The notes under the pieces are model-generated. The model did not search any database. It was not told the DNA's origin and saw only the letters and a program-made list of their open reading frames with translations. From contig NZ_LT635455.1 of the NCBI RefSeq assembly GCF_900119915.1, positions 2,108,001-2,172,000 of the forward strand: DNA of 64,000 bases, read 5' to 3'. Numbering within the stretch: position 1 is the stretch's first letter; every line of letters begins with the position of its first letter. Both the position numbers and the translations under genes were made by a program. Positions 8,136 to 31,471 of the stretch are shown here, in pieces. This DNA is from Olsenella timonensis (GTDB lineage Bacteria > Actinomycetota > Coriobacteriia > Coriobacteriales > Atopobiaceae).

Positions 8136-8170
8136 TCTCGCCCTCCCCTGGGTCGGGCCGCGACGCTGCC

Positions 8171-9028: not shown

Positions 9029-9064
9029 GGGGCCTCCTTTGGTCAGGCGAGAAGAACGCGGACC

Positions 9065-9070
9065 AGTATA
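9065..9070 (-). promoter_or_regulatory. -10 element TATACT for the esterase pair
   Basis: TATACT on the minus strand precedes the perfect ribosome-binding site of the first esterase gene. The -35 region is not recognisable in the GC-rich sequence upstream. Confidence 0.5.
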
Positions 9071-9162
9071 GCGCGGCTCCGCCCGCCGCTTGGGGCGGCG
9101 TCGTTGCCGCCGCGGGGCGCCTGCGTTACGGGTTTGGGTCCATGGGGGGCGCCGTGCGGGGC

Positions 9163-9885: not shown

Positions 9886-9910
9886 GTCCCTCCCGTGGTC
9901 GTGGCTACAG

Positions 9911-10034
9911 CTTATTCAAATAACTAGGCGGCGAGAAGGACGTGCCGCTGGCGGGTGAAAGTATACCGTTCGTAGATTCGCGCAACTTATTCAAATAAGT
10001 AGTGCGACACTACTCGGTAACTTATTCAAATAAG
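9911..10034. promoter_or_regulatory. Three TreR-type operators in the treR-EIIBCA divergent region
   Basis: CTTATTCAAATAA(G/C) occurs at 9911-9924, 9986-9999 and 10021-10034; sites two and three are identical and flanked to AACTTATTCAAATAAGT. Each is a near-palindrome with half-sites CTTATT and AATAAG. A further small palindrome (GTAGTG CGA CACTAC, 9999-10013) lies between sites two and three. Sites two and three are 35 bases apart and site one is 75 bases from site two, so looping between operators is possible. They are the only AT-rich islands in this GC-rich spacer. Confidence 0.8.
9960..9988 (-). promoter_or_regulatory. treR promoter
   Basis: On the minus strand AAGTTG (9983-9988) and TATACT (9960-9965) are separated by exactly 17 bases. 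The -35 box overlaps operator two. For the opposite direction TTCGTA (9969-9974) and TCAAAT (9991-9996), 16 bases apart, are the best but weak candidates and would put operator two over the -10 box. Confidence 0.5.
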
Positions 10035-10070
10035 TTCGCCACGCCAGGGCGAGAAGAGGGAGGACGAGAC

Positions 10071-12059: not shown

Positions 12060-12106
12060 CCAGAACGACCCGAGCAAGCTTGAACCCTATCGAGGAGGCT
12101 GACGGC

Positions 12107-13798
12107 ATGGCGGAGACAGAGAGGGACTTTCGCAGGAGCGTGATCTACCAGATCTACGTCAAGAGCTTCTGCGACAGCGACGGTGACGGCCTGGGCGACC
12201 TGCCCGGCATCACGAGCAAGCTGGACTACCTGGAGCGTCTGGGCGTCGACTACGTGTGGCTCACCCCGTTCTACCCCTCGCCCCAGCGCGACAACGGCTA
12301 CGACGTGGCGGACTACTGCGCCGTGGACCCGCGCTACGGCACGATGGCGGACTTTGACGAGCTGGTGGCCGCCGCGCGCGAGCGGGGCATCGGCGTCATG
12401 CTGGACATGGTGCTCTGCCACACCTCGCGCGACCACGAGTGGTTCCGCCGCGCCTGCGCCGGCGAGAAGCGCTACCAGGACTACTACATCCTGCGCGACG
12501 GCCGCGGCTCGTCCGGGGCGGGCGACCCCGGCGAGCCCCCCACCAACTGGCAGTGCGCCTTCGGCGGCAGCGCCTGGGAGTGGGAGCCGAGTCTGGGCAA
12601 GTGGTACCTGCACCTGCACGACGCGAGCCAGCCGGACCTCGACTGGACCAACCCCGCCGTGCGCGAGGAGTGCGCCGACGTGGTGCGCTTCTGGCGCGAG
12701 CGCGGCGTGCGCGGCTTCCGCTTCGACGTCATCAACCTGATCTCCAAGCCGGAGGTCATCGAGGACGTCCCCGGCTCGGGCAGCGCCTGCCGATCGCTCG
12801 TGGCCGACGGTCCGCACGTCCACGAGTACCTGCGGGAGCTCGTCGAGCGGGCCGGCATCGACGGCATGGTCACGGTCGGCGAGATGGCCTCGACGGACCT
12901 GGCCAACTGCGTCCGCTACACGCGGCCGCAGAGCCGCGAGCTCTCCATGAGCTTCAGCTTCCACCACCTCAAGGTCGACTACGCCGGCGGCGACAAGTGG
13001 TCCCTCATGGAGCCGGACGTCGCGGCGCTGCGATCGGTCCTGCGCGAGTGGCAGGAGGGCATGCAGGCCGGCGGCGGCTGGAACGCCCTGTTCTGGGACA
13101 ACCACGACCAGCCGCGCGCGATCACGCGCTTTGGGGGGCGCGCGGGCGTTGGCGAGCGCGGGGGCAGCTGGGACCTCGTGGGCAAGATGCTCGCCACCCT
13201 GAGCTTCTTCATGAAGGGTACGCCCTACGTCTACCAGGGCGACGAGCTGGGCATGACCAACGCCGGCTACGGCTCCATCGAGGAGTTCGACGACGTTGAG
13301 AGCAAGAACGCCTACCGCATGCTGCTCGACCGGGGGTCGACGCCGGAGGAGGCGCTGCACGTGGTGAACGAGCGCTCGCGCGACAACGGCCGTACGCCCA
13401 TGCAGTGGACGGCCGGCCCAAACGCCGGCTTCACCTCCGGCACGCCCTGGCTGGGGGTCCCGGCGTCGGCGGCGCGCGTGAACGCCGAGGCGGAGGTGGG
13501 CGTGAGCGGCTCCCTGTTCGAGTTCTACCGCCGCCTGATCGAATTGCGCCACACGAGCGACGTGCTCGCCCTCGGCGACATCCGCTTCCTGGACGCGGGG
13601 GTGGGGGCTCCCGCGGCGATCGCGTTCGAGCGCACGCTGGGCGAGCGGCGCCTCGTGGTCGCCTGCTCCTTCGACGAGGAGCCGTGCGCGCTGGCGGACC
13701 TGGGGTGCGCGGGCGCCGAGGTCCTTATCGGCAACTATGCCGACGCCCCGTCCGACGGCACGCTGCGCCCCTACGAGGCCGTGGTCTGGGACGCGTGA
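12107..13798 (+). CDS. treC: Alpha,alpha-phosphotrehalase (GH13)
   Basis: Hydrolyses trehalose 6-phosphate to glucose and glucose 6-phosphate; the latter feeds Pgi. The 563-residue protein is a GH13 enzyme of the oligo-1,6-glucosidase/TreC group: opening VIYQIYVKSFCDSDGDGLGD, nucleophile Asp207 in GFRFDVIN, acid/base Glu259 in VGEMAS, and Asp334 in NHDQPR. Assignment to TreC rather than an alpha-glucosidase rests on the adjoining trehalose PTS and regulator. ATG 12107 has GAGGAGG eight bases upstream. A strong GC hairpin pair follows the stop codon. Confidence 0.9.
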   Translation: MAETERDFRRSVIYQIYVKSFCDSDGDGLGDLPGITSKLDYLERLGVDYVWLTPFYPSPQRDNGYDVADYCAVDPRYGTMADFDELVAAARERGIGVMLDMVLCHTSRDHEWFRRACAGEKRYQDYYILRDGRGSSGAGDPGEPPTNWQCAFGGSAWEWEPSLGKWYLHLHDASQPDLDWTNPAVREECADVVRFWRERGVRGFRFDVINLISKPEVIEDVPGSGSACRSLVADGPHVHEYLRELVERAGIDGMVTVGEMASTDLANCVRYTRPQSRELSMSFSFHHLKVDYAGGDKWSLMEPDVAALRSVLREWQEGMQAGGGWNALFWDNHDQPRAITRFGGRAGVGERGGSWDLVGKMLATLSFFMKGTPYVYQGDELGMTNAGYGSIEEFDDVESKNAYRMLLDRGSTPEEALHVVNERSRDNGRTPMQWTAGPNAGFTSGTPWLGVPASAARVNAEAEVGVSGSLFEFYRRLIELRHTSDVLALGDIRFLDAGVGAPAAIAFERTLGERRLVVACSFDEEPCALADLGCAGAEVLIGNYADAPSDGTLRPYEAVVWDA

Positions 13799-13799
13799 C

Positions 13800-13860
13800 G
13801 GGAGGTCCGACCTCCCCCGCAATAGACGGAGGCCCTGCGGGACGTGTCCCGAGGGCCTCC
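13800..13860 (+). terminator. Hairpins after treC
   Basis: A short perfect palindrome (GGGAGGTCCGACCTCCC, 13800-13816) is followed by a longer stem GGAGGCCC/GGGCCTCC (13828-13835 with 13853-13860) with an inner GCGGGAC/GTCCCG stem. There is no T run, as is common in high-GC genomes. Beyond it, 13861-14095 contains two more inverted repeats: CGTCTAGACG (13965-13974) and GCCGGTGAA/TTCACCGGC (13981-13989 with 13998-14006); these may be operators for the next gene. TACGAT at 14059-14064 is its likely -10 box. Confidence 0.6.
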
Positions 13861-14095
13861 ACTTCGGCAGCTGCCAAGCCATAAGCTTTACAGTGCGTGC
13901 GCACGCGACCAATCTCGTCGTGCGCTCGCTCCCTGCGCAGTGAGTATCATTTCCCAGGGGAGCCCGTCTAGACGCGAGATGCCGGTGAACGGTCCGTTTC
14001 ACCGGCCGAGCACAACTCGTCGACAACCCCTCCACAAGCCGGGCGCGCCCACATGCGCTACGATTCGTCGGGTGAGACGAGAGATGGGAGACCTC

Positions 14096-14683
14096 ATGGC
14101 AAAGAGGGGCGCAAGGGCCGCGGCGCGCCGCCGGGACGGCGAGAGGGACGCCGAGGCGTTTCGCTTTGACGACTCCAAGTACGGGCGCACGCTCTTCTCG
14201 GCGTCCTTTGACTACGGCGAGCTCAGCTTTGCGCGTGCGGTGGAGATGCTCGCCCCGCGCGTGCCGACGGCGCTCAAGCTGGTCTCCGTCGTGCCCCTGC
14301 TGGGCATCGTGCTTGCCGCGCTCCTCGTTGGGACGGACAGCGTCGCGCTGTACGCGAGCTTCGCCGTGGCGCTCGTGTGCATCGTGGCGACGGGCAACTG
14401 GAGCCGCGTCCTGACCGGCTACGCGCGCAAGACCACGCTCGCGCCCGCCGAGGGCGGCGAGCGCCGCCACGTCGCCGTCACCGAGGACGCCGTCCACGTC
14501 GAGAGCGAGCGGGGCCCGATTGGCAGCTTCGACCTCTCCGACCTGCGGACGGTCTACCACACCGCCGAGTGCGTGGTGGCCGGCTTCGGGGAGGGCCGCT
14601 ACGCCTACGTCCCGCGCTCCGCGCTGAGCGAGGGGCGCTTCCGCGAGCTCTGCCGATTCCTCGACGAGCGCCGCGAGGCGTAG
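14096..14683 (+). CDS. YcxB-like membrane protein
   Basis: A 195-residue protein with two hydrophobic segments (about residues 60-80 and 82-102) followed by a beta-rich domain (KTTLAPAEGGERRHVAVTEDAVHVESERG, then SFDLSDLRTVYHTAECVVAGF) in the style of YcxB/PH-like domains, ending in a short basic helix. The N terminus is basic and cytoplasmic. Function is unknown. The ATG at 14096 has GGGAG at usual spacing; an ATG at 14084 would add four residues. It converges with adenine deaminase with 24 bases between stops. Confidence 0.78.
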   Translation: MAKRGARAAARRRDGERDAEAFRFDDSKYGRTLFSASFDYGELSFARAVEMLAPRVPTALKLVSVVPLLGIVLAALLVGTDSVALYASFAVALVCIVATGNWSRVLTGYARKTTLAPAEGGERRHVAVTEDAVHVESERGPIGSFDLSDLRTVYHTAECVVAGFGEGRYAYVPRSALSEGRFRELCRFLDERREA

Positions 14684-14707
14684 GGCTCCCGCGCCGCCGC
14701 GGCCGCG

Positions 14708-16519
14708 TCACTCGGCCAGCAGCGGCTCCATCTCAAAGGTGAGGCAGTTCACGTAGCCGCGGTTCGTGAGGCGCAGCTCCGGCACGCACGCGAGCGACAT
14801 CACGCCCATCGTCATGAACGGCGAGGGCATCGCGCAGCCCATCTGCTCCCACGCCGCCCGCGCCCGCGCCACCTTCTCGGCCACGACCTCGACCCGCTCC
14901 GTGCTCATGAGGCCGCAGACGGGCAGCTCCACGAGGGCGAGGACCCGGCCGTCCGCCACGGCGACCTCGCCGCCGCCGCACTCCGCGAGCGTCGCGGCCG
15001 CAAGGGCCATGTCCTCGTCGTTGTCGCCCATGACGAGGAGGTTGTGCGCGTCGTGGGAGACGGTCTGCGCGAGCGCGCCGTGGATGCCGAAGCCCGTGAC
15101 AAAGCCAAAGGCGCGCGTTCCCTCCGCGCCGTGGTGCCGGTCAAAGACGGCTACCTTGAGCACGTCGTTCTCCGGGTCGGCCTGGAGCGAGCCGTCCGTC
15201 ACCGGCACCTCCGCGACGATGCTGCGCGTGAGGGTGTCGCCGGGGTCGATCGCCATGGCGCGGACGCGGGCCGTGCCGTCGGGAAGGTCGACGGGGATGC
15301 GGAACGTGTCGGCGGTGGGCGTGAAGCCCAGGTTCATCGTGTGGGTCATGAAGTCGGGCCAGGCGTAGGGCTCCACCGAGAAGAGCGCGCGGCCGTCCTC
15401 GGCGACGAGCTCGCCGTCGATGAAGACCTTGCGCGCGACGAAGCCCTCGAGGTCGTCCAGGAGCACGATGTCGGCGCACTTGCCAGGAGTGACGGATCCC
15501 AGGTCGCGCGCGAGACCGAAGTACTCGGCGCAGTTGATCGTGGCCATCTGCAGCGCCGTCACCGGGTCCAGGCCCAGGCGCACGCACTCGCGCAGGATGC
15601 GGTCCATGTGGCCCTCGTCCACGAGCGTGTGCGGGTGGTTGTCGTCCGAGCAGAGCAGGCACAGGCGCGTGTCCACGCCGCTCGCCACGAGCTGCGGAAG
15701 GTAGCCGGGGAGGTTGAGCCACGCCGACCCCTGGCGAAGCTGCACGTACATGCCCATGCGCAGCTTGGCGAGCACCTCGTCGAAGCTGCCCGACTCGTGG
15801 CAGGAGGAGACGCCGGAGGCGACGTAGGCGCTGAGCGCGCGGTCGCGGTCCGGCGACGGGAAGTGGCCGGTGACCACGCGGTCCGCGGCGAGCGTGGCGC
15901 GCACCTCGTCGATGGCGTTGCCCTCGCAGGCCAGGATGCCCGGGAAGTTCATCATCTCGCCGAGTGCCACGACGTTGTCCCAGGTCATGCTGTCGGCGAT
16001 GTCCGCGGCGGTGACCTCGGCGCCGGTGTCCTCCACGCCCGTCACGGCCGGCACGCACGACGGCGGCGTCATCATCGCCTTGAGCGGCACGCGCCGCGCG
16101 TCCTCGAACATCGCCCTCACGCCGGGGAGGCCGCGCACGTTGCCCACCTCGTGGGGGTCGCAGAAGATGCCGGTCGTGCCGTGCGGGACGACGGCGCGCG
16201 CGTACTCCGACACGCCGATCATTGCGCTCTCGACGTGGATGTGGCTGTCCATGAGGCCCGGGGCGGCATAGAGCCCGGAGGCGTCCACGACCACGGTGTC
16301 TTGCCCGATGCAGTGCTCGGCCGTGTGCTCGCCCAGGCCGAGGTAGGCAACGCGGCCGCAGGCGACGGCGATGTCGGTGTCGGGAAGAATCTCGTGCGTG
16401 GTCACGCTCACGAGGCTTGCGTGGCGAATCACGAGGTCGGCGGGCCTCTCGCCCTGCGCCACGCGCACGAGCTCGTCGTTGCACTCCCAGAGCGGCACCT
16501 TGCAGAAGCGGTTGATCAT
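14708..16519 (-). CDS. ade: Adenine deaminase
   Basis: Deaminates adenine to hypoxanthine and ammonia for purine salvage. The 603-residue, metal-dependent amidohydrolase has the N-terminal metal site GLMDSHIHVESAMI (His93, His95, Glu97), the HGTT-CDPHE(V)GNV segment, and the C-terminal domain typical of the AdeC family (SHDAHNLLVMGDN, then the RLTNRGYVNCLTFE ending). Length fits. ATG 16519 is preceded by AAGGAGG. It is transcribed alone, divergent from the SRP RNA. With the nucleoside hydrolase and PurH in the same window it completes a base-salvage theme. Confidence 0.93.
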   Translation of the reverse strand: MINRFCKVPLWECNDELVRVAQGERPADLVIRHASLVSVTTHEILPDTDIAVACGRVAYLGLGEHTAEHCIGQDTVVVDASGLYAAPGLMDSHIHVESAMIGVSEYARAVVPHGTTGIFCDPHEVGNVRGLPGVRAMFEDARRVPLKAMMTPPSCVPAVTGVEDTGAEVTAADIADSMTWDNVVALGEMMNFPGILACEGNAIDEVRATLAADRVVTGHFPSPDRDRALSAYVASGVSSCHESGSFDEVLAKLRMGMYVQLRQGSAWLNLPGYLPQLVASGVDTRLCLLCSDDNHPHTLVDEGHMDRILRECVRLGLDPVTALQMATINCAEYFGLARDLGSVTPGKCADIVLLDDLEGFVARKVFIDGELVAEDGRALFSVEPYAWPDFMTHTMNLGFTPTADTFRIPVDLPDGTARVRAMAIDPGDTLTRSIVAEVPVTDGSLQADPENDVLKVAVFDRHHGAEGTRAFGFVTGFGIHGALAQTVSHDAHNLLVMGDNDEDMALAAATLAECGGGEVAVADGRVLALVELPVCGLMSTERVEVVAEKVARARAAWEQMGCAMPSPFMTMGVMSLACVPELRLTNRGYVNCLTFEMEPLLAE

Positions 16520-16587
16520 GACAGCCTCCTTGTGAGCGACGTTTGGACAAGGGTAGCGCGTGCGTGGCGCGCTCGGCCCGACTTTGC

Positions 16588-16593
16588 TAGAGT
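16588..16593 (+). promoter_or_regulatory. -10 element TAGAGT for the SRP RNA
   Basis: TAGAGT sits ten bases before the inferred 5' end of the SRP RNA. No clear -35 box is seen. Confidence 0.4.
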
Positions 16594-16602
16594 GTTCCGC
16601 GA

Positions 16603-16707
16603 GCGCGTTCGGCGGGCTCGGGTGACGCGACACCTCGAACCTGGTCAGGGCCGGGAGGCAGCAGCCATAAGGGGCCTCTGGCGGGCACCCGATCCCACCG
16701 AGCGCGC
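16603..16707 (+). ncRNA. ffs: Small signal recognition particle RNA (4.5S)
   Basis: The conserved SRP domain IV loop is clear at about 16645-16676: GGTCAGGGCCGGGAGGCAGC followed by AGCCATAAGG. The flanks pair into the long hairpin: GCGCG and CTCGGGTG on the 5' side with CACCCGA and GAGCGCGC on the 3' side. A six-T tract at 16708-16713 ends the transcript. The RNA binds Ffh for cotranslational protein targeting. It lies upstream of dnaX, as in many Gram-positive genomes, here with two PH-domain genes between. Ends are inferred from pairing, good to a few bases. Confidence 0.9.
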
Positions 16708-16743
16708 TTTTTTGCTGCCGCGACGCCCGACGCGCGGACCCTC

Positions 16744-16817
16744 GCCCCCGCCCGTGAATTCACGAGCGGGGGCGATTCTCGTTTTGGCGAGCAGAACGGC
16801 CCGCACGTGAATTCACG
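16744..16817. repeat. Two CGTGAATTCACG palindromes between ffs and the PH-domain genes
   Basis: A 12-bp perfect palindrome occurs at 16753-16764 and 16806-16817, both followed by AGCGGGGG. The first is extended to a strong stem (GCCCCCG at 16744-16750 with CGGGGGC at 16767-16773). They could act as a backup terminator for the SRP RNA or a two-site operator for the following operon. Confidence 0.5.
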
Positions 16818-16874
16818 AGCGGGGGGGGGTTCCGTGCGATAATGACCCGGTGCCCGCGACCCGAAGGAGCCCCC

Positions 16875-17354
16875 GTGAGCGACCTGCCCTCGCACCGCCT
16901 GGACCCGCGCATGCTGCGCGTGTGGTACGCCTCCGACGCCATTGCCATCGCCTGCGTCGCGCTGCTCGCCGTCGCGGCCTGGGCGATCGTGCGCCACCTC
17001 GGCGGCGACGTCTTCTGGGTCTATCTCGTCGCGGGCGTCGTCGAGCTGGTGTGCGTGGGCGACCTGCTCGTCTCGCCGCGCGTCGAGATGGCCACCTGGC
17101 GATACGACGTCACGCCGACCGACGTTGACCTCTACCACGGCGTCTTTGTGAAGAAGCGCGTGCTCGTGCCGCTCGTGCGCGTCCAGCACGTGCAGACCAA
17201 GCAGGGCCCCATCCTGCGCGCGCACGGCCTCGCGAGCGTGACCGTCTCCACGGCGGGGGAGAGCTTCGAGATTCCGGGGGTCGCCGAGGACGAGGCGGCT
17301 GCGCTGCGCGACCGCGTGGCAGAGCTCGCGCGCCTCGCCAAGGAGGACGTGTGA
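16875..17354 (+). CDS. Bacterial PH-domain membrane protein, YdbS type
   Basis: A 159-residue protein with two membrane segments (about 18-42 and 46-66) and a C-terminal bPH2 domain (WRYDVTPTDVDLYHGVFVKKRVLVPLVRVQHVQ begins it). The signature of a strongly conserved RVQHV is visible. Start is GTG at 16875, chosen because GAAGGAG lies at ideal spacing; an in-frame ATG at 16842 has no such site. Its stop overlaps the start of the next gene by four bases (GTGA). Such YdbS/YdbT pairs form membrane complexes of unproven function in Bacillus. Confidence 0.87.
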   Translation: MSDLPSHRLDPRMLRVWYASDAIAIACVALLAVAAWAIVRHLGGDVFWVYLVAGVVELVCVGDLLVSPRVEMATWRYDVTPTDVDLYHGVFVKKRVLVPLVRVQHVQTKQGPILRAHGLASVTVSTAGESFEIPGVAEDEAAALRDRVAELARLAKEDV

Positions 17355-19093
17355 GCGCCGCGTCGGGCGAGAGGGACGGTCGGCCCCCGGCGCCGGGTGC
17401 GCCGGCAGACGAGAAGGACCTCGTCCGAGAGGTCGAGCGGCTCGCCGTCCCGGAGCGCTCGCTCTTTGAGCGCGCCGACGACGCCACGCCCGCCGTGCTG
17501 TCCGGCACGCACCGCGCCAACCCCCTCTCCGTGCTCGTCGAGGCCCTCAAGATGACCTCCGGCCTGGCGGCGCTCGTGGCGTTTGGCCTGGCGGGGGACT
17601 TCTTCGCGGGAGACGTCGGCGCGCTGGCCACGCTCGCCGCCTCCGCCGTCGCGATCTTCGCCGCGTGCCTGCTGCTCGGCTTCGTCGCCTGGCGCGCCCG
17701 TACGTGGGAGCTCGCCGACGACGGCCTCGTCGTGCGCTGGGGCCTGCTCAACCGCCGCCGCCTCACGATTCCCTACGAGCACGTCCACACCGTCTCGATG
17801 AACTCCGCCCTGCTCGAGCGCATCGTCGGGCTCGTGACGCTGGACCTGGACACGGGCGCGGCCACCTCCGAGGGGGACGCCTCCAAGGTGCGCGGCCTGC
17901 GCGTCGGCGAGGCAGACGCCCTGCGCGCTGAGCTCTTCCGCCGCAAGCGGGCCCTCGAGGTGCCGGGGGACGAGGAGGGCGGCGTGCCCGCGGGCTCCGC
18001 CGACCCTCGGCCCGAGGAGCGCCCGCTCGCCGTGTTCTCGCTTACGGGCCGTCGCCTCGCGCTCGCGGCGGCCTCTCGGACGAACGCGGCCAGCCAGGCC
18101 TTCGCCCTCGTGATCCTGCTCGTCAACGGCGTGAACCAGCTCATCGAGTGGGGCCTGCTCGACATAGCGGGCACGGGCGACCAGCTCATGGCCGCGATGA
18201 CGCCCGCGCTCCTTCCGGCGGCGTCGGCCTTCGTGCTTGCCGTCGTCGTGCTGGGCGCGCTCGTCTCCTTCGCGACCAACCTCGTGCGCTACGCGGGCTA
18301 CCGCGTGGAGCGCTATGCCGACCGCGTGGTGGTGGAGCACGGCCTCGTCTCCCGCTCGTCGCGCACGCTCGCGACCGGCCGCGTCCAGTACCTGACCGTG
18401 ACCCAGGGCCTGGTTCGTCGGGCCATCGGCTACGCGGAGGTGAGCGCCTGGGTGGTGGCCGAGCCGGGCGAGGCGGGCGGCGAGCCGGCGGGCAGCGTGC
18501 TGATCCATCCCTTCGTGAGGCTGGGCGAGCTGGACGCCTTTCTCGCCGAGGTGCTGCCGGCCTACGCGGGCGTGCTCGACGACGTGGAGCTGGGACGCCT
18601 GGGCCCCGTCGCGGGTCGGCGCGCCGTGGTGCGCGCCGCGCTCTGGTGGCCGTTTGCGCTGGGGGCCTTCTTCGGGTTCCACTGGCTGTTCGGGGTCTCC
18701 GGCCTGCTCGCGCACGCCGGCTGGCTGGTCGGCCCGCTGCTTGCGGCGGCGGGGGCGCTGAGCGTGCTCTTCCTGGCGGTCCTCGTCGCCGACGCCCTTC
18801 TCGCCTGGCGGGGGGCTCGCTACGGCCACACGGCCCTTGAGCTGGTGCTGGTTTCAGGGGGCCTTACGCGGAGGACCGCGATTGCGCCGCGCGCCCGCCT
18901 GCAGCGGATGCGGGTCTCGCAAAGCCCCTTCCAGCGTCGGGCCGGCGTGGCGAGCGTCTCCGTGCGCACCGCCTCGAGCGGCGCCGACGGCCTCGACCTG
19001 CGGGACGTGCCCGCCGACGAGGCGAGCTCCCTTCTCGCCTGGTTTCGCCCGCGCGGCGCGGCGGCTCCATGCAAAGCCGACGATTACCGGTAA
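17351..19093 (+). CDS. Multi-PH-domain membrane protein, YdbT type
   Basis: A 580-residue protein with three repeats of paired membrane segments followed by a bPH2 domain: segments near 74-115, 240-315 and 425-500, with PH domains after each (RVQYLTVTQGLVRR and RLQRMRVSQSPFQRR are the core strands of the second and third). GTG start at 17351 overlaps the preceding stop, so the two genes are translationally coupled. The last 25 bases fall within the long inverted repeat 19068-19159. No enzymatic motif is seen; a scaffold or envelope-stress role is only a guess from relatives. Confidence 0.87.
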   Translation: MSAASGERDGRPPAPGAPADEKDLVREVERLAVPERSLFERADDATPAVLSGTHRANPLSVLVEALKMTSGLAALVAFGLAGDFFAGDVGALATLAASAVAIFAACLLLGFVAWRARTWELADDGLVVRWGLLNRRRLTIPYEHVHTVSMNSALLERIVGLVTLDLDTGAATSEGDASKVRGLRVGEADALRAELFRRKRALEVPGDEEGGVPAGSADPRPEERPLAVFSLTGRRLALAAASRTNAASQAFALVILLVNGVNQLIEWGLLDIAGTGDQLMAAMTPALLPAASAFVLAVVVLGALVSFATNLVRYAGYRVERYADRVVVEHGLVSRSSRTLATGRVQYLTVTQGLVRRAIGYAEVSAWVVAEPGEAGGEPAGSVLIHPFVRLGELDAFLAEVLPAYAGVLDDVELGRLGPVAGRRAVVRAALWWPFALGAFFGFHWLFGVSGLLAHAGWLVGPLLAAAGALSVLFLAVLVADALLAWRGARYGHTALELVLVSGGLTRRTAIAPRARLQRMRVSQSPFQRRAGVASVSVRTASSGADGLDLRDVPADEASSLLAWFRPRGAAAPCKADDYR

Positions 19094-19159
19094 CGTGCGA
19101 TTGCGCGTTCTTCTCGCCCCGCAGAATCGCGCGTTACCGGAAACCGTCGATTTTGCATG
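19068..19159. repeat. Long imperfect hairpin element with the 9-mer in its loop
   Basis: Arms of 35 bases (19068-19102 with 19125-19159) match at about 30 positions; the inner 16 bases (CCGGTAACGTGCGATT with AATCGCGCGTTACCGG) differ at one. The loop contains GTTCTTCTCGCCCCG (19107-19121), the same 15-mer that opens the two 148-bp repeats at 50072 and 55986, and GGCGAGAAGAAC follows at 19169. It overlaps the 3' end of the upstream gene and likely ends its transcript. Confidence 0.7.
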
Positions 19160-19214
19160 CAAGGCCGCGGCGAGAAGAACCTGTGGGCGCGCGGCGCCTC
19201 GCCCATGCCGCGGG

Positions 19215-19220
19215 TATACT
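19215..19220 (+). promoter_or_regulatory. -10 element TATACT for dnaX
   Basis: TATACT lies 34 bases before the dnaX ATG; no -35 match is apparent. It restarts transcription after the hairpin element. Confidence 0.45.
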
Positions 19221-19254
19221 GGAACCTCAAAGGCAAACGTGGGCCGGAGGCCGC

Positions 19255-21009
19255 ATGGAATCGCTCTACACCAAGTATCGCCCGCAGACGTTTGAGCAGG
19301 TCGTGGGCCAGTCGCACGTGGTCGAGACCCTCAGGCGCGCCGTGCTCGAGGGCCGCACCAGCCACGCGTACCTGTTCTGCGGCCCGCGTGGCACGGGCAA
19401 GACCACGATGGCGCGCATCCTCGCAAAGGCGCTCATGTGCGAGAAGGGCCCCGCCGCGCTCCCCGACGGCACCTGCGAGCAGTGCCGCCTCATCGCCGCC
19501 GGCGAGCACCCCGACGTGATCGAGCTTGACGCCGCGTCGCGCACCGGCGTGGACAACGTCCGCGAGGAGATCATCGGCCGCGTGAGCTACGCGCCGGTCA
19601 TGGGCCGCGCGAAGGTCTACATCATCGACGAGGTCCACATGCTCACGCCGGCGGCGTTCAACGCGCTGCTCAAGACGCTCGAGGAGCCTCCCGACAACGT
19701 CGTCTTCGTGATGTGCACGACCGACCCGCAGAAGATCCTGGCCACGATTCTCTCTCGCGTGCAGCGCTTCGACTTCCACGCGATCGGGAACGACGAGATG
19801 CAGGCGCACCTCGCCTACGTGTGCTCCCAGGAGGGCTTTAGCTATGACGAGGAGGCACTCGAGCTCGTGGTGCGCCATGCGCGCGGCGGCATGCGCGACG
19901 CGCTGACCTCGCTCGAGCAGCTCTCCGTCTTCGGAGCGGGCCGCATCGGCCTGGAGGCCGCGCAGGACCTGCTCGGCGAGGCGTCCGGCGCCGTGCTCGG
20001 CAAGGTCGCGCGCGCAATGGCGCACCGTGACGTGGCGGCGCTGTTCGCCGAGGTGGCGAAGCTGGCGGACGATGGCCGCGACCTGCTGCGCTTTACGCGC
20101 GAGCTGGCAGCCCACCTGCGTGACGTCTACGTCGTGTCCGCGGTCCCGAGCACCGACGACGTGGTCGCGGCGCGCGGGGAGGAGCTCGAGGCGCTTCGCG
20201 TGGAGGCGGCCGCCTTTGGCTCGACCGATCGCGTGGCGCGCGTCCTCACCATCCTCGGCGACGCCTCGAGCGAGATGCGCACTGCCACCAACCAGCGCCT
20301 CGTTCTCGAGATCGCCCTCACCCGCGTGGCGCGCCCCGAGTCCGACCTCACCCTCGAGGCGCTCGCCGAGCGTGTTGCCGACCTCGAGCGGCAGGTCGCC
20401 GTCCTTTCCACGCCCGGCAGCCTCGCCGGGCCCGCGGAGGCGCCCCGACCCCGGACCCAGGCCCAAACCCAGGCCCAAACCCAAGACCAAGACGGGTTTG
20501 GGTCCGTCGCAGCGCTCGCCGATAAGGTGGCTCAGGGCGTTCCCGCAGGTCAGGGACACGCGTCCCAGGCGGCGCCGGCGCCTGTGGCCACCGTGGAGCC
20601 CGCTCGTGAACCCAAACCCTCGAAGGGTGCCGAGAAGCCCGGGGGGAACGGGTCTGGCGCTCCGGTGCCGGCGCGGGATCCCGCGCCGGCACCGGAGCGC
20701 CAGACCCGTTCCCCCCGGGCTTCTCGGCACCCTTCGAGGGTTTGGGTTCACGAGCGGGCTCCACGGTGGCCACAGGCGCCGGCGCCGCCTGGGACGCGTG
20801 TCCCTGACCTGCGGGAACGCCCTGAGCCACCTTATCGGCGAGCGCTGCGACGGACCCAAACCCGTCTTGGTCTTGGGTTTGGGCCTGGGTTTGGGCCTGG
20901 GTCCGGGGTCGGGGCGCCTCCGCGGGCCCGGCGAGGCTGCCGGGCGTGGAAAGGACGGCGACCTGCCGCTCGAGGTCGGCAACACGCTCGGCGAGCGCCT
21001 CGAGGGTGA
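19255..21009 (+). CDS. dnaX: DNA polymerase III gamma/tau subunit, truncated at the palindrome axis
   Basis: Clamp-loader ATPase that loads the beta clamp at the fork. Residues 1-474 are native: Walker A GPRGTGKTT (43-51), Walker B VYIIDEVHML (121-130), the SRVQRF sensor/arginine-finger region (167-172), domain III to about 370, then an Ala/Pro/Gln linker. From codon 475 (base 20679) the frame continues into the reverse complement of the gene itself for 110 meaningless residues before a stop. The tau-specific C terminus is absent. The Zn-finger region shows Cys62, Cys74 and Cys77 only; Asp71 stands near where relatives have the second Cys. ATG at 19255 replaces an earlier unsupported in-frame start. 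As dnaX is essential, an intact copy should exist in the true genome. Confidence 0.85.
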   Translation: MESLYTKYRPQTFEQVVGQSHVVETLRRAVLEGRTSHAYLFCGPRGTGKTTMARILAKALMCEKGPAALPDGTCEQCRLIAAGEHPDVIELDAASRTGVDNVREEIIGRVSYAPVMGRAKVYIIDEVHMLTPAAFNALLKTLEEPPDNVVFVMCTTDPQKILATILSRVQRFDFHAIGNDEMQAHLAYVCSQEGFSYDEEALELVVRHARGGMRDALTSLEQLSVFGAGRIGLEAAQDLLGEASGAVLGKVARAMAHRDVAALFAEVAKLADDGRDLLRFTRELAAHLRDVYVVSAVPSTDDVVAARGEELEALRVEAAAFGSTDRVARVLTILGDASSEMRTATNQRLVLEIALTRVARPESDLTLEALAERVADLERQVAVLSTPGSLAGPAEAPRPRTQAQTQAQTQDQDGFGSVAALADKVAQGVPAGQGHASQAAPAPVATVEPAREPKPSKGAEKPGGNGSGAPVPARDPAPAPERQTRSPRASRHPSRVWVHERAPRWPQAPAPPGTRVPDLRERPEPPYRRALRRTQTRLGLGFGPGFGPGSGVGAPPRARRGCRAWKGRRPAARGRQHARRAPRG

Positions 21010-22102
21010 GGTCGGACTCGGGGCGCGCCACGCGGGTGAGGGCGATCTCGAGAACGAGGCGCTGGTTGGTGGCAGTGCGCATCTCGCTCGAGGCGTCGCC
21101 GAGGATGGTGAGGACGCGCGCCACGCGATCGGTCGAGCCAAAGGCGGCCGCCTCCACGCGAAGCGCCTCGAGCTCCTCCCCGCGCGCCGCGACCACGTCG
21201 TCGGTGCTCGGGACCGCGGACACGACGTAGACGTCACGCAGGTGGGCTGCCAGCTCGCGCGTAAAGCGCAGCAGGTCGCGGCCATCGTCCGCCAGCTTCG
21301 CCACCTCGGCGAACAGCGCCGCCACGTCACGGTGCGCCATTGCGCGCGCGACCTTGCCGAGCACGGCGCCGGACGCCTCGCCGAGCAGGTCCTGCGCGGC
21401 CTCCAGGCCGATGCGGCCCGCTCCGAAGACGGAGAGCTGCTCGAGCGAGGTCAGCGCGTCGCGCATGCCGCCGCGCGCATGGCGCACCACGAGCTCGAGT
21501 GCCTCCTCGTCATAGCTAAAGCCCTCCTGGGAGCACACGTAGGCGAGGTGCGCCTGCATCTCGTCGTTCCCGATCGCGTGGAAGTCGAAGCGCTGCACGC
21601 GAGAGAGAATCGTGGCCAGGATCTTCTGCGGGTCGGTCGTGCACATCACGAAGACGACGTTGTCGGGAGGCTCCTCGAGCGTCTTGAGCAGCGCGTTGAA
21701 CGCCGCCGGCGTGAGCATGTGGACCTCGTCGATGATGTAGACCTTCGCGCGGCCCATGACCGGCGCGTAGCTCACGCGGCCGATGATCTCCTCGCGGACG
21801 TTGTCCACGCCGGTGCGCGACGCGGCGTCAAGCTCGATCACGTCGGGGTGCTCGCCGGCGGCGATGAGGCGGCACTGCTCGCAGGTGCCGTCGGGGAGCG
21901 CGGCGGGGCCCTTCTCGCACATGAGCGCCTTTGCGAGGATGCGCGCCATCGTGGTCTTGCCCGTGCCACGCGGGCCGCAGAACAGGTACGCGTGGCTGGT
22001 GCGGCCCTCGAGCACGGCGCGCCTGAGGGTCTCGACCACGTGCGACTGGCCCACGACCTGCTCAAACGTCTGCGGGCGATACTTGGTGTAGAGCGATTCC
22101 AT
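20348..22102 (-). CDS. dnaX: DNA polymerase III gamma/tau subunit, mirror copy, truncated
   Basis: Exact reverse-complement copy of the truncated dnaX; its native part is 20679-22102 and it overlaps the other copy tail-to-tail across the axis. Both copies carry the same break, so neither can supply the full-length tau protein. Confidence 0.82.
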   Translation of the reverse strand: MESLYTKYRPQTFEQVVGQSHVVETLRRAVLEGRTSHAYLFCGPRGTGKTTMARILAKALMCEKGPAALPDGTCEQCRLIAAGEHPDVIELDAASRTGVDNVREEIIGRVSYAPVMGRAKVYIIDEVHMLTPAAFNALLKTLEEPPDNVVFVMCTTDPQKILATILSRVQRFDFHAIGNDEMQAHLAYVCSQEGFSYDEEALELVVRHARGGMRDALTSLEQLSVFGAGRIGLEAAQDLLGEASGAVLGKVARAMAHRDVAALFAEVAKLADDGRDLLRFTRELAAHLRDVYVVSAVPSTDDVVAARGEELEALRVEAAAFGSTDRVARVLTILGDASSEMRTATNQRLVLEIALTRVARPESDLTLEALAERVADLERQVAVLSTPGSLAGPAEAPRPRTQAQTQAQTQDQDGFGSVAALADKVAQGVPAGQGHASQAAPAPVATVEPAREPKPSKGAEKPGGNGSGAPVPARDPAPAPERQTRSPRASRHPSRVWVHERAPRWPQAPAPPGTRVPDLRERPEPPYRRALRRTQTRLGLGFGPGFGPGSGVGAPPRARRGCRAWKGRRPAARGRQHARRAPRG

Positions 22103-22263
22103 GCGGCCTCCGGCCCACGTTTGCCTTTGAGGTTCCAGTATACCCGCGGCATGGGCGAGGCGCCGCGCGCCCACAGGTTCTTCTCGCCGCGGCCTTGCAT
22201 GCAAAATCGACGGTTTCCGGTAACGCGCGATTCTGCGGGGCGAGAAGAACGCGCAATCGCACG

Positions 22264-24006
22264 TTACCGGTAATCGTCGGCTTTGCATGGAGCCGCCGCG
22301 CCGCGCGGGCGAAACCAGGCGAGAAGGGAGCTCGCCTCGTCGGCGGGCACGTCCCGCAGGTCGAGGCCGTCGGCGCCGCTCGAGGCGGTGCGCACGGAGA
22401 CGCTCGCCACGCCGGCCCGACGCTGGAAGGGGCTTTGCGAGACCCGCATCCGCTGCAGGCGGGCGCGCGGCGCAATCGCGGTCCTCCGCGTAAGGCCCCC
22501 TGAAACCAGCACCAGCTCAAGGGCCGTGTGGCCGTAGCGAGCCCCCCGCCAGGCGAGAAGGGCGTCGGCGACGAGGACCGCCAGGAAGAGCACGCTCAGC
22601 GCCCCCGCCGCCGCAAGCAGCGGGCCGACCAGCCAGCCGGCGTGCGCGAGCAGGCCGGAGACCCCGAACAGCCAGTGGAACCCGAAGAAGGCCCCCAGCG
22701 CAAACGGCCACCAGAGCGCGGCGCGCACCACGGCGCGCCGACCCGCGACGGGGCCCAGGCGTCCCAGCTCCACGTCGTCGAGCACGCCCGCGTAGGCCGG
22801 CAGCACCTCGGCGAGAAAGGCGTCCAGCTCGCCCAGCCTCACGAAGGGATGGATCAGCACGCTGCCCGCCGGCTCGCCGCCCGCCTCGCCCGGCTCGGCC
22901 ACCACCCAGGCGCTCACCTCCGCGTAGCCGATGGCCCGACGAACCAGGCCCTGGGTCACGGTCAGGTACTGGACGCGGCCGGTCGCGAGCGTGCGCGACG
23001 AGCGGGAGACGAGGCCGTGCTCCACCACCACGCGGTCGGCATAGCGCTCCACGCGGTAGCCCGCGTAGCGCACGAGGTTGGTCGCGAAGGAGACGAGCGC
23101 GCCCAGCACGACGACGGCAAGCACGAAGGCCGACGCCGCCGGAAGGAGCGCGGGCGTCATCGCGGCCATGAGCTGGTCGCCCGTGCCCGCTATGTCGAGC
23201 AGGCCCCACTCGATGAGCTGGTTCACGCCGTTGACGAGCAGGATCACGAGGGCGAAGGCCTGGCTGGCCGCGTTCGTCCGAGAGGCCGCCGCGAGCGCGA
23301 GGCGACGGCCCGTAAGCGAGAACACGGCGAGCGGGCGCTCCTCGGGCCGAGGGTCGGCGGAGCCCGCGGGCACGCCGCCCTCCTCGTCCCCCGGCACCTC
23401 GAGGGCCCGCTTGCGGCGGAAGAGCTCAGCGCGCAGGGCGTCTGCCTCGCCGACGCGCAGGCCGCGCACCTTGGAGGCGTCCCCCTCGGAGGTGGCCGCG
23501 CCCGTGTCCAGGTCCAGCGTCACGAGCCCGACGATGCGCTCGAGCAGGGCGGAGTTCATCGAGACGGTGTGGACGTGCTCGTAGGGAATCGTGAGGCGGC
23601 GGCGGTTGAGCAGGCCCCAGCGCACGACGAGGCCGTCGTCGGCGAGCTCCCACGTACGGGCGCGCCAGGCGACGAAGCCGAGCAGCAGGCACGCGGCGAA
23701 GATCGCGACGGCGGAGGCGGCGAGCGTGGCCAGCGCGCCGACGTCTCCCGCGAAGAAGTCCCCCGCCAGGCCAAACGCCACGAGCGCCGCCAGGCCGGAG
23801 GTCATCTTGAGGGCCTCGACGAGCACGGAGAGGGGGTTGGCGCGGTGCGTGCCGGACAGCACGGCGGGCGTGGCGTCGTCGGCGCGCTCAAAGAGCGAGC
23901 GCTCCGGGACGGCGAGCCGCTCGACCTCTCGGACGAGGTCCTTCTCGTCTGCCGGCGCACCCGGCGCCGGGGGCCGACCGTCCCTCTCGCCCGACGCGGC
24001 GCTCAC
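22264..24006 (-). CDS. Multi-PH-domain membrane protein, YdbT type (mirror copy)
   Basis: Identical to the 580-residue protein at 17351-19093, in opposite orientation and again coupled by a GTGA overlap to the smaller PH-domain gene upstream of it. Confidence 0.85.
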   Translation of the reverse strand: MSAASGERDGRPPAPGAPADEKDLVREVERLAVPERSLFERADDATPAVLSGTHRANPLSVLVEALKMTSGLAALVAFGLAGDFFAGDVGALATLAASAVAIFAACLLLGFVAWRARTWELADDGLVVRWGLLNRRRLTIPYEHVHTVSMNSALLERIVGLVTLDLDTGAATSEGDASKVRGLRVGEADALRAELFRRKRALEVPGDEEGGVPAGSADPRPEERPLAVFSLTGRRLALAAASRTNAASQAFALVILLVNGVNQLIEWGLLDIAGTGDQLMAAMTPALLPAASAFVLAVVVLGALVSFATNLVRYAGYRVERYADRVVVEHGLVSRSSRTLATGRVQYLTVTQGLVRRAIGYAEVSAWVVAEPGEAGGEPAGSVLIHPFVRLGELDAFLAEVLPAYAGVLDDVELGRLGPVAGRRAVVRAALWWPFALGAFFGFHWLFGVSGLLAHAGWLVGPLLAAAGALSVLFLAVLVADALLAWRGARYGHTALELVLVSGGLTRRTAIAPRARLQRMRVSQSPFQRRAGVASVSVRTASSGADGLDLRDVPADEASSLLAWFRPRGAAAPCKADDYR

Positions 24007-24482
24007 ACGTCCTCCTTGGCGAGGCGCGCGAGCTCTGCCACGCGGTCGCGCAGCGCAGCCGCCTCGTCCTCGGCGACCCCCGGAATCTCGAAGCTCTCCC
24101 CCGCCGTGGAGACGGTCACGCTCGCGAGGCCGTGCGCGCGCAGGATGGGGCCCTGCTTGGTCTGCACGTGCTGGACGCGCACGAGCGGCACGAGCACGCG
24201 CTTCTTCACAAAGACGCCGTGGTAGAGGTCAACGTCGGTCGGCGTGACGTCGTATCGCCAGGTGGCCATCTCGACGCGCGGCGAGACGAGCAGGTCGCCC
24301 ACGCACACCAGCTCGACGACGCCCGCGACGAGATAGACCCAGAAGACGTCGCCGCCGAGGTGGCGCACGATCGCCCAGGCCGCGACGGCGAGCAGCGCGA
24401 CGCAGGCGATGGCAATGGCGTCGGAGGCGTACCACACGCGCAGCATGCGCGGGTCCAGGCGGTGCGAGGGCAGGTCGCTCAC
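24003..24482 (-). CDS. Bacterial PH-domain membrane protein, YdbS type (mirror copy)
   Basis: Identical to 16875-17354; GTG start with GAAGGAG upstream. The twin CGTGAATTCACG palindromes lie before it at 24540-24551 and 24593-24604. Confidence 0.85.
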   Translation of the reverse strand: MSDLPSHRLDPRMLRVWYASDAIAIACVALLAVAAWAIVRHLGGDVFWVYLVAGVVELVCVGDLLVSPRVEMATWRYDVTPTDVDLYHGVFVKKRVLVPLVRVQHVQTKQGPILRAHGLASVTVSTAGESFEIPGVAEDEAAALRDRVAELARLAKEDV

Positions 24483-24649
24483 GGGGGCTCCTTCGGGTCG
24501 CGGGCACCGGGTCATTATCGCACGGAACCCCCCCCCGCTCGTGAATTCACGTGCGGGCCGTTCTGCTCGCCAAAACGAGAATCGCCCCCGCTCGTGAATT
24601 CACGGGCGGGGGCGAGGGTCCGCGCGTCGGGCGTCGCGGCAGCAAAAAA

Positions 24650-24754
24650 GCGCGCTCGGTGGGATCGGGTGCCCGCCAGAGGCCCCTTATGGCTGCTGCC
24701 TCCCGGCCCTGACCAGGTTCGAGGTGTCGCGTCACCCGAGCCCGCCGAACGCGC
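24650..24754 (-). ncRNA. ffs: Small signal recognition particle RNA (mirror copy)
   Basis: Reverse-complement copy of the SRP RNA at 16603-16707, with the T tract at 24644-24649 on the minus strand and the -10 element TAGAGT at 24764-24769. Confidence 0.88.
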
Positions 24755-24837
24755 TCGCGGAACACTCTAGCAAAGTCGGGCCGAGCGCGCCACGCACGCG
24801 CTACCCTTGTCCAAACGTCGCTCACAAGGAGGCTGTC

Positions 24838-26649
24838 ATGATCAACCGCTTCTGCAAGGTGCCGCTCTGGGAGTGCAACGACGAGCTCGTGCGCGTGGCG
24901 CAGGGCGAGAGGCCCGCCGACCTCGTGATTCGCCACGCAAGCCTCGTGAGCGTGACCACGCACGAGATTCTTCCCGACACCGACATCGCCGTCGCCTGCG
25001 GCCGCGTTGCCTACCTCGGCCTGGGCGAGCACACGGCCGAGCACTGCATCGGGCAAGACACCGTGGTCGTGGACGCCTCCGGGCTCTATGCCGCCCCGGG
25101 CCTCATGGACAGCCACATCCACGTCGAGAGCGCAATGATCGGCGTGTCGGAGTACGCGCGCGCCGTCGTCCCGCACGGCACGACCGGCATCTTCTGCGAC
25201 CCCCACGAGGTGGGCAACGTGCGCGGCCTCCCCGGCGTGAGGGCGATGTTCGAGGACGCGCGGCGCGTGCCGCTCAAGGCGATGATGACGCCGCCGTCGT
25301 GCGTGCCGGCCGTGACGGGCGTGGAGGACACCGGCGCCGAGGTCACCGCCGCGGACATCGCCGACAGCATGACCTGGGACAACGTCGTGGCACTCGGCGA
25401 GATGATGAACTTCCCGGGCATCCTGGCCTGCGAGGGCAACGCCATCGACGAGGTGCGCGCCACGCTCGCCGCGGACCGCGTGGTCACCGGCCACTTCCCG
25501 TCGCCGGACCGCGACCGCGCGCTCAGCGCCTACGTCGCCTCCGGCGTCTCCTCCTGCCACGAGTCGGGCAGCTTCGACGAGGTGCTCGCCAAGCTGCGCA
25601 TGGGCATGTACGTGCAGCTTCGCCAGGGGTCGGCGTGGCTCAACCTCCCCGGCTACCTTCCGCAGCTCGTGGCGAGCGGCGTGGACACGCGCCTGTGCCT
25701 GCTCTGCTCGGACGACAACCACCCGCACACGCTCGTGGACGAGGGCCACATGGACCGCATCCTGCGCGAGTGCGTGCGCCTGGGCCTGGACCCGGTGACG
25801 GCGCTGCAGATGGCCACGATCAACTGCGCCGAGTACTTCGGTCTCGCGCGCGACCTGGGATCCGTCACTCCTGGCAAGTGCGCCGACATCGTGCTCCTGG
25901 ACGACCTCGAGGGCTTCGTCGCGCGCAAGGTCTTCATCGACGGCGAGCTCGTCGCCGAGGACGGCCGCGCGCTCTTCTCGGTGGAGCCCTACGCCTGGCC
26001 CGACTTCATGACCCACACGATGAACCTGGGCTTCACGCCCACCGCCGACACGTTCCGCATCCCCGTCGACCTTCCCGACGGCACGGCCCGCGTCCGCGCC
26101 ATGGCGATCGACCCCGGCGACACCCTCACGCGCAGCATCGTCGCGGAGGTGCCGGTGACGGACGGCTCGCTCCAGGCCGACCCGGAGAACGACGTGCTCA
26201 AGGTAGCCGTCTTTGACCGGCACCACGGCGCGGAGGGAACGCGCGCCTTTGGCTTTGTCACGGGCTTCGGCATCCACGGCGCGCTCGCGCAGACCGTCTC
26301 CCACGACGCGCACAACCTCCTCGTCATGGGCGACAACGACGAGGACATGGCCCTTGCGGCCGCGACGCTCGCGGAGTGCGGCGGCGGCGAGGTCGCCGTG
26401 GCGGACGGCCGGGTCCTCGCCCTCGTGGAGCTGCCCGTCTGCGGCCTCATGAGCACGGAGCGGGTCGAGGTCGTGGCCGAGAAGGTGGCGCGGGCGCGGG
26501 CGGCGTGGGAGCAGATGGGCTGCGCGATGCCCTCGCCGTTCATGACGATGGGCGTGATGTCGCTCGCGTGCGTGCCGGAGCTGCGCCTCACGAACCGCGG
26601 CTACGTGAACTGCCTCACCTTTGAGATGGAGCCGCTGCTGGCCGAGTGA
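24838..26649 (+). CDS. ade: Adenine deaminase (mirror copy)
   Basis: Same 603-residue protein as 14708-16519, complete with its AAGGAGG site; flanked here by the mirror SRP RNA on the left and the convergent YcxB-like gene on the right. Confidence 0.91.
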   Translation: MINRFCKVPLWECNDELVRVAQGERPADLVIRHASLVSVTTHEILPDTDIAVACGRVAYLGLGEHTAEHCIGQDTVVVDASGLYAAPGLMDSHIHVESAMIGVSEYARAVVPHGTTGIFCDPHEVGNVRGLPGVRAMFEDARRVPLKAMMTPPSCVPAVTGVEDTGAEVTAADIADSMTWDNVVALGEMMNFPGILACEGNAIDEVRATLAADRVVTGHFPSPDRDRALSAYVASGVSSCHESGSFDEVLAKLRMGMYVQLRQGSAWLNLPGYLPQLVASGVDTRLCLLCSDDNHPHTLVDEGHMDRILRECVRLGLDPVTALQMATINCAEYFGLARDLGSVTPGKCADIVLLDDLEGFVARKVFIDGELVAEDGRALFSVEPYAWPDFMTHTMNLGFTPTADTFRIPVDLPDGTARVRAMAIDPGDTLTRSIVAEVPVTDGSLQADPENDVLKVAVFDRHHGAEGTRAFGFVTGFGIHGALAQTVSHDAHNLLVMGDNDEDMALAAATLAECGGGEVAVADGRVLALVELPVCGLMSTERVEVVAEKVARARAAWEQMGCAMPSPFMTMGVMSLACVPELRLTNRGYVNCLTFEMEPLLAE

Positions 26650-26673
26650 CGCGGCCGCGGCGGCGCGGGAGCC

Positions 26674-27261
26674 CTACGCCTCGCGGCGCTCGTCGAGGAA
26701 TCGGCAGAGCTCGCGGAAGCGCCCCTCGCTCAGCGCGGAGCGCGGGACGTAGGCGTAGCGGCCCTCCCCGAAGCCGGCCACCACGCACTCGGCGGTGTGG
26801 TAGACCGTCCGCAGGTCGGAGAGGTCGAAGCTGCCAATCGGGCCCCGCTCGCTCTCGACGTGGACGGCGTCCTCGGTGACGGCGACGTGGCGGCGCTCGC
26901 CGCCCTCGGCGGGCGCGAGCGTGGTCTTGCGCGCGTAGCCGGTCAGGACGCGGCTCCAGTTGCCCGTCGCCACGATGCACACGAGCGCCACGGCGAAGCT
27001 CGCGTACAGCGCGACGCTGTCCGTCCCAACGAGGAGCGCGGCAAGCACGATGCCCAGCAGGGGCACGACGGAGACCAGCTTGAGCGCCGTCGGCACGCGC
27101 GGGGCGAGCATCTCCACCGCACGCGCAAAGCTGAGCTCGCCGTAGTCAAAGGACGCCGAGAAGAGCGTGCGCCCGTACTTGGAGTCGTCAAAGCGAAACG
27201 CCTCGGCGTCCCTCTCGCCGTCCCGGCGGCGCGCCGCGGCCCTTGCGCCCCTCTTTGCCAT
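26674..27261 (-). CDS. YcxB-like membrane protein (mirror copy)
   Basis: Identical to 14096-14683. The spacer to treC with its hairpins is mirrored at 27262-27558. Confidence 0.76.
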   Translation of the reverse strand: MAKRGARAAARRRDGERDAEAFRFDDSKYGRTLFSASFDYGELSFARAVEMLAPRVPTALKLVSVVPLLGIVLAALLVGTDSVALYASFAVALVCIVATGNWSRVLTGYARKTTLAPAEGGERRHVAVTEDAVHVESERGPIGSFDLSDLRTVYHTAECVVAGFGEGRYAYVPRSALSEGRFRELCRFLDERREA

Positions 27262-27558
27262 GAGGTCTCCCATCTCTCGTCTCACCCGACGAATCGTAGC
27301 GCATGTGGGCGCGCCCGGCTTGTGGAGGGGTTGTCGACGAGTTGTGCTCGGCCGGTGAAACGGACCGTTCACCGGCATCTCGCGTCTAGACGGGCTCCCC
27401 TGGGAAATGATACTCACTGCGCAGGGAGCGAGCGCACGACGAGATTGGTCGCGTGCGCACGCACTGTAAAGCTTATGGCTTGGCAGCTGCCGAAGTGGAG
27501 GCCCTCGGGACACGTCCCGCAGGGCCTCCGTCTATTGCGGGGGAGGTCGGACCTCCCG

Positions 27559-29250
27559 TCACGCGTCCCAGACCACGGCCTCGTAGGGGCGCAGCGTGCC
27601 GTCGGACGGGGCGTCGGCATAGTTGCCGATAAGGACCTCGGCGCCCGCGCACCCCAGGTCCGCCAGCGCGCACGGCTCCTCGTCGAAGGAGCAGGCGACC
27701 ACGAGGCGCCGCTCGCCCAGCGTGCGCTCGAACGCGATCGCCGCGGGAGCCCCCACCCCCGCGTCCAGGAAGCGGATGTCGCCGAGGGCGAGCACGTCGC
27801 TCGTGTGGCGCAATTCGATCAGGCGGCGGTAGAACTCGAACAGGGAGCCGCTCACGCCCACCTCCGCCTCGGCGTTCACGCGCGCCGCCGACGCCGGGAC
27901 CCCCAGCCAGGGCGTGCCGGAGGTGAAGCCGGCGTTTGGGCCGGCCGTCCACTGCATGGGCGTACGGCCGTTGTCGCGCGAGCGCTCGTTCACCACGTGC
28001 AGCGCCTCCTCCGGCGTCGACCCCCGGTCGAGCAGCATGCGGTAGGCGTTCTTGCTCTCAACGTCGTCGAACTCCTCGATGGAGCCGTAGCCGGCGTTGG
28101 TCATGCCCAGCTCGTCGCCCTGGTAGACGTAGGGCGTACCCTTCATGAAGAAGCTCAGGGTGGCGAGCATCTTGCCCACGAGGTCCCAGCTGCCCCCGCG
28201 CTCGCCAACGCCCGCGCGCCCCCCAAAGCGCGTGATCGCGCGCGGCTGGTCGTGGTTGTCCCAGAACAGGGCGTTCCAGCCGCCGCCGGCCTGCATGCCC
28301 TCCTGCCACTCGCGCAGGACCGATCGCAGCGCCGCGACGTCCGGCTCCATGAGGGACCACTTGTCGCCGCCGGCGTAGTCGACCTTGAGGTGGTGGAAGC
28401 TGAAGCTCATGGAGAGCTCGCGGCTCTGCGGCCGCGTGTAGCGGACGCAGTTGGCCAGGTCCGTCGAGGCCATCTCGCCGACCGTGACCATGCCGTCGAT
28501 GCCGGCCCGCTCGACGAGCTCCCGCAGGTACTCGTGGACGTGCGGACCGTCGGCCACGAGCGATCGGCAGGCGCTGCCCGAGCCGGGGACGTCCTCGATG
28601 ACCTCCGGCTTGGAGATCAGGTTGATGACGTCGAAGCGGAAGCCGCGCACGCCGCGCTCGCGCCAGAAGCGCACCACGTCGGCGCACTCCTCGCGCACGG
28701 CGGGGTTGGTCCAGTCGAGGTCCGGCTGGCTCGCGTCGTGCAGGTGCAGGTACCACTTGCCCAGACTCGGCTCCCACTCCCAGGCGCTGCCGCCGAAGGC
28801 GCACTGCCAGTTGGTGGGGGGCTCGCCGGGGTCGCCCGCCCCGGACGAGCCGCGGCCGTCGCGCAGGATGTAGTAGTCCTGGTAGCGCTTCTCGCCGGCG
28901 CAGGCGCGGCGGAACCACTCGTGGTCGCGCGAGGTGTGGCAGAGCACCATGTCCAGCATGACGCCGATGCCCCGCTCGCGCGCGGCGGCCACCAGCTCGT
29001 CAAAGTCCGCCATCGTGCCGTAGCGCGGGTCCACGGCGCAGTAGTCCGCCACGTCGTAGCCGTTGTCGCGCTGGGGCGAGGGGTAGAACGGGGTGAGCCA
29101 CACGTAGTCGACGCCCAGACGCTCCAGGTAGTCCAGCTTGCTCGTGATGCCGGGCAGGTCGCCCAGGCCGTCACCGTCGCTGTCGCAGAAGCTCTTGACG
29201 TAGATCTGGTAGATCACGCTCCTGCGAAAGTCCCTCTCTGTCTCCGCCAT
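27559..29250 (-). CDS. treC: Alpha,alpha-phosphotrehalase (mirror copy)
   Basis: Identical to 12107-13798, with the catalytic Asp207, Glu259 and Asp334 intact; lies 47 bases downstream of the mirror EIIBCA gene. Confidence 0.88.
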   Translation of the reverse strand: MAETERDFRRSVIYQIYVKSFCDSDGDGLGDLPGITSKLDYLERLGVDYVWLTPFYPSPQRDNGYDVADYCAVDPRYGTMADFDELVAAARERGIGVMLDMVLCHTSRDHEWFRRACAGEKRYQDYYILRDGRGSSGAGDPGEPPTNWQCAFGGSAWEWEPSLGKWYLHLHDASQPDLDWTNPAVREECADVVRFWRERGVRGFRFDVINLISKPEVIEDVPGSGSACRSLVADGPHVHEYLRELVERAGIDGMVTVGEMASTDLANCVRYTRPQSRELSMSFSFHHLKVDYAGGDKWSLMEPDVAALRSVLREWQEGMQAGGGWNALFWDNHDQPRAITRFGGRAGVGERGGSWDLVGKMLATLSFFMKGTPYVYQGDELGMTNAGYGSIEEFDDVESKNAYRMLLDRGSTPEEALHVVNERSRDNGRTPMQWTAGPNAGFTSGTPWLGVPASAARVNAEAEVGVSGSLFEFYRRLIELRHTSDVLALGDIRFLDAGVGAPAAIAFERTLGERRLVVACSFDEEPCALADLGCAGAEVLIGNYADAPSDGTLRPYEAVVWDA

Positions 29251-29297
29251 GCCGTCAGCCTCCTCGATAGGGTTCAAGCTTGCTCGGGTCGTTCTGG

Positions 29298-31286: not shown

Positions 31287-31322
31287 GTCTCGTCCTCCCT
31301 CTTCTCGCCCTGGCGTGGCGAA

Positions 31323-31446: not shown

Positions 31447-31471
31447 CTGTAGCCACGACCACGGGAGGGAC

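Follow-up and report, generated by a model that had tools for sequence, protein, structure and literature searches.

A 96-kb palindrome centred in dnaX at one contig end of Olsenella timonensis, best explained as an assembly artefact

The palindrome and the truncated dnaX frames

We analysed a stretch of 64,000 nucleotides from Olsenella timonensis (hereafter, the window), which corresponds to G000:C1:2085357-2149356, minus strand, in a genome that consists of a single contig, C1, of 2,176,737 bp. A 31-mer comparison revealed that all 31-mers of window 1-41356 pair with their own reverse complement about an axis at 20678/20679. When the flanking stretches were compared with the window, the arms were found to measure 48,033 bp each contig-wide, with zero mismatches and no spacer, making up a 96-kb palindrome centred in dnaX. 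The mirror of window 20679-64000 lies fully within the outer arm, partly outside the window. Features at the locus are given below in window positions, with contig positions in brackets.

1..20678, no strand: outer arm, perfect reverse complement of 20679-41356 (C1:2128679-2149356; full outer arm C1:2128679-2176711)
20678..20679, no strand: fold-back axis, spacer-free, in the Pro/Ala-rich dnaX linker
20679..64000, no strand: inner arm (C1:2085357-2128678; full inner arm C1:2080646-2128678, reaching beyond the window)
19255..20676, plus strand: spurious mirror image of the first 474 dnaX codons, exactly reverse-complementary to 20681-22102
20681..22102, minus strand: native dnaX up to codon 474, covering the ATPase, lid and domain III and running into the linker, identified by TIGR02397 (403 bits), Pfam and alignment with relatives
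16609..16704, plus strand: spurious mirror of the gene for the small SRP RNA (Rfam RF00169, 49.5 bits)
24653-24748, minus strand: native gene for the small SRP RNA (Rfam RF00169, 49.5 bits)

The outer arm, including its part at window 1-20678, is judged to be a spurious reverse-complement copy, and window 20679-64000 is judged to be the native arm; the dnaX end of the latter is collinear with the corresponding locus of a relative, L016, described below. The G+C content of the whole window is 70%, and long open frames are numerous on both strands; most of the antisense frames across the window are probably non-genic.

A preliminary description, made from the letters of the window, had placed the axis within dnaX and stated that both dnaX frames enter their own antisense after codon 474, keeping domains I-III and losing the tau C terminus. 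Our analysis agrees on each point: the gene is cut at the axis, each frame has 474 codons, and the Pfam matches cover only the ATPase, lid and domain III regions. In a genome-wide search for a second, full-length dnaX, the hits other than the two mirror copies were all more distantly related AAA+ proteins. A short tandem repeat, CAGGCCCAAACC, occupies window 20455-20500 in the dnaX linker, near the assembly break. Just upstream of dnaX, at window 19080-19160 (mirror 22197-22277), there is a long imperfect hairpin whose stability exceeds that of shuffled sequences (z -6.1, DNA parameters); it possibly belongs to another dispersed hairpin family.

The centre of the 96-kb palindrome is GCGCGGGATCCCGCGC, which had been proposed as a short GC palindrome able to prime fold-back synthesis. 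We considered whether it points independently to a priming site and decided against this, because the bases beside any spacer-free fold-back axis are self-complementary by construction. Natural palindromes of 14 to 18 bp are present elsewhere in the GC-rich sequence.

The rest of dnaX lies at the opposite contig end

The start of the contig carries the following genes, all encoded on the strand along which the inner dnaX copy would continue.

C1:2-418: dnaX C-terminal frame, stop included, open at the contig edge; matches the DnaX C termini of relatives
C1:475-810: ybaB (YbaB/EbfC protein), identified by Pfam
C1:829-1437: recR, identified by Pfam and by TIGR00615 (256 bits at C1:856-1428)

The first of these frames matched the C termini of full-length DnaX proteins of relatives with E values of 1e-27 to 4e-14 (e.g., LTPEFADIAAQLSAAFGQPLSVSVE...), and in a profile search the recR match was the sole one in the genome. 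The preliminary description had noted that ybaB and recR, the usual neighbours of dnaX, are missing. This holds for the window, where neither was seen, but not for the genome, since both lie at the other contig end. It had also predicted that a native gene continuing differently from the axis would mark a fold-back, and the remaining part of dnaX at the opposite contig end is such a continuation. The strand and order of the dnaX C terminus, ybaB and recR are as expected for a circular chromosome that has been cut inside dnaX.

An adapter ends the outer arm

Past the outer arm only 26 bases are left before the contig ends. The final 23 of these, GTCTCTTATACACCTCTGACGCG, agree in 21 bases with read-through of the Illumina Nextera adapter (Tn5 mosaic end plus read adapter), for which the chance probability is about 3e-11 with a fixed alignment. 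With one mismatch allowed, the adapter motif occurs once in the genome, at C1:2176715-2176731, and at the corresponding point the inner arm has ordinary, different sequence instead of the adapter. In Nextera read-through, the mosaic end is continued by GACGCTGCCGACGA. The mosaic-end sequence itself, CTGTCTCTTATACACATCT, is trimmed in published Nextera data sets (PMC4777721, PMC8115904). The adapter-bearing contig end is not a biological end. Taken alone, the terminal adapter is no proof of a false axis; it shows only that the end is untrue.

In about 100 kb of sequence that was read, we also observed several dispersed, REP-like hairpins, each about 80 bp long (GATTAaCAtGCAGAATcCGG ... CCGGATTCTGCGTGTTaaTC). 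Two copies, spaced 5,914 bp apart, have exact stretches in common, and one element immediately precedes the adapter-bearing contig end. Their positions are as follows.

Window 50112-50190 and 56026-56104: REP-like hairpin elements (mirror copies in L009)
L010:11601-11679: REP-like hairpin element
L012:10679-10757: REP-like hairpin element

Complete relatives encode a conserved tau block that the assembly lacks

In L016 (Atopobium sp. UBA1382, DBQY01000016.1), the arm, a 760-aa dnaX, ybaB and recR are all contiguous. This single stretch aligns to window 16000-20643 and then to C1:210-3000, with 80-86% DNA identity over long segments. Protein identity over codons 1-467 of dnaX is 79%, and the neighbours and their order are alike; the L016 locus differs in that its 760-aa gene is intact and has no fold-back.

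We compared the gene with a set of 10 complete dnaX genes, from L016 and nine genomes of the same genus. All 10 encode proteins of 714-822 aa, and in all of them a block of about 95 residues (NGNLQRTWKQVVDQL...VVYVESSLA...) is conserved shortly past the point that corresponds to the axis. When a relative's 95 residues were used as the query, this tau block was not found in the O. timonensis assembly (best E value 0.25, no credible match). In the relatives, the motif YPMPWD lies 121-163 residues from the start of the tau block, and the same motif is present at the start of C1. Because the tau block is conserved in complete relatives and absent here, we conclude that this dnaX is not a natural gamma-only form and that its middle is unassembled. 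The unaligned part of L016 puts the missing length at roughly 0.4 kb, and we estimate the gap at about 0.3-0.5 kb overall.

Origin of the palindrome

There is very little doubt, in our assessment, that the palindrome in dnaX is a contig-end assembly artefact. This conclusion follows from three independent facts: adapter sequence terminates the arm, the complementary piece of dnaX lies together with ybaB and recR at the far end of the contig, and every complete relative has the conserved continuation of the gene. The same observations do not support the earlier claim that both copies of dnaX are destroyed and that a gamma-like DnaX alone is left; the remainder of the gene is on the same contig. 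An artefact of this type is expected to have identical arms that are symmetric on a spacer-free axis, an outer arm that is terminal in the contig and a true continuation of the axis locus elsewhere; here, the arms are identical about such an axis, the outer arm runs to within 26 bp of the contig end and gives way to adapter, and the continuation is found at C1:1-1437, collinear in L016.

That the cell carries a true 96-kb chromosomal palindrome or a hairpin end in dnaX, surviving on a split or gamma-like DnaX, is very improbable. Long perfect palindromes are unstable in bacteria, which counts against a real giant inverted duplication arising through fold-back synthesis at the short palindrome in dnaX. 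The perfection of the palindrome in the assembled sequence would fit such an event, but the adapter ends the outer arm at the contig end, the remainder of dnaX lies at the other end, the assembly nowhere contains the block of roughly 95 residues that every complete relative conserves, and the duplication would leave no intact dnaX; we therefore hold it to be extremely unlikely. A linear chromosome with a covalently closed hairpin end at the axis, the palindrome resulting from sequencing round the hairpin, is scarcely credible. A spacer-free fold-back at a contig end is how an assembled hairpin telomere is expected to look, yet this arrangement would split dnaX between two chromosome ends with the tau block removed, whereas in complete relatives dnaX is intact and followed by ybaB. 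It would also call for two fold-back ends or shared terminal repeats, and neither was seen: inverted repeats of at least 25 bp are absent from the contig's first 20 kb, and the contig start has no 31-mer in common with the window and the flanking end regions.

It is next to impossible that DnaX in this lineage is gamma-only and stops at the axis residue. Although the likeness of the frame to dnaX does end after codon 474, the genome has its own matching C terminus at C1:2-418, and the alignment with complete relatives had already refuted this possibility. The preliminary description had named complete gamma-only genes ending at this residue in close relatives as the result that would overturn its account; no such gene was found, every relative encoding the longer protein with the conserved C terminus.

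Most likely, assembly broke down within the dnaX linker, where the sequence is GC-rich and encodes mainly Pro and Ala. The 5' part of the gene lies on one side of the contig and the 3' part opens the other, and the 5' part is extended by an exact reverse-complement copy of the adjoining 48,033 bp. The source of this extension may have been a read or molecule folded back on itself (template joined to complement), or an assembler that retraced its own contig, and the identity of the arms would come from polishing or shared short reads. A fold-back read and an assembler walk-back would be expected to look the same. For just one fold-back read, 48 kb would be a long arm, which counts against that source; given this length and the short-read adapter at the arm's end, either course may apply.

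The inverted chimeras that arise in multiple displacement amplification are shorter, usually with a spacer, and there is no sign that this genome was amplified. They are similar in that a sequence becomes joined to its own reverse complement through fold-back priming (PMC1855051). In nanopore genomic data, fold-back reads make up about 0.6% of reads, some of them spacer-free, and they are said to tangle assembly graphs (PMC12870357). Such reads resemble the present case in their exact reverse-complement continuation, sometimes without a spacer and unrelated to real structure, but they were described as reads, whereas we are dealing with a finished contig end with 48-kb arms (PMC12870357). Our search of the literature on metagenomic palindrome misassembly found little.

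Implications

Almost certainly, the true chromosome is a circle of about 2.13 Mb that carries a single ordinary dnaX of full length, with ybaB and recR after it. Once the outer arm and the tail are taken away, 2,128,678 bp remain, to which the missing 0.3-0.5 kb must be added. The palindrome has no biological importance, and its value is in quality control. The genome, a single contig with ratings of 99.25% for completeness and 0.66% for contamination, has one end made up of about 48 kb of false sequence, and in the same assembly an essential gene is split and an adapter is left untrimmed. Any count of genes or copies in the affected region would be wrong, as would synteny inferred from it.
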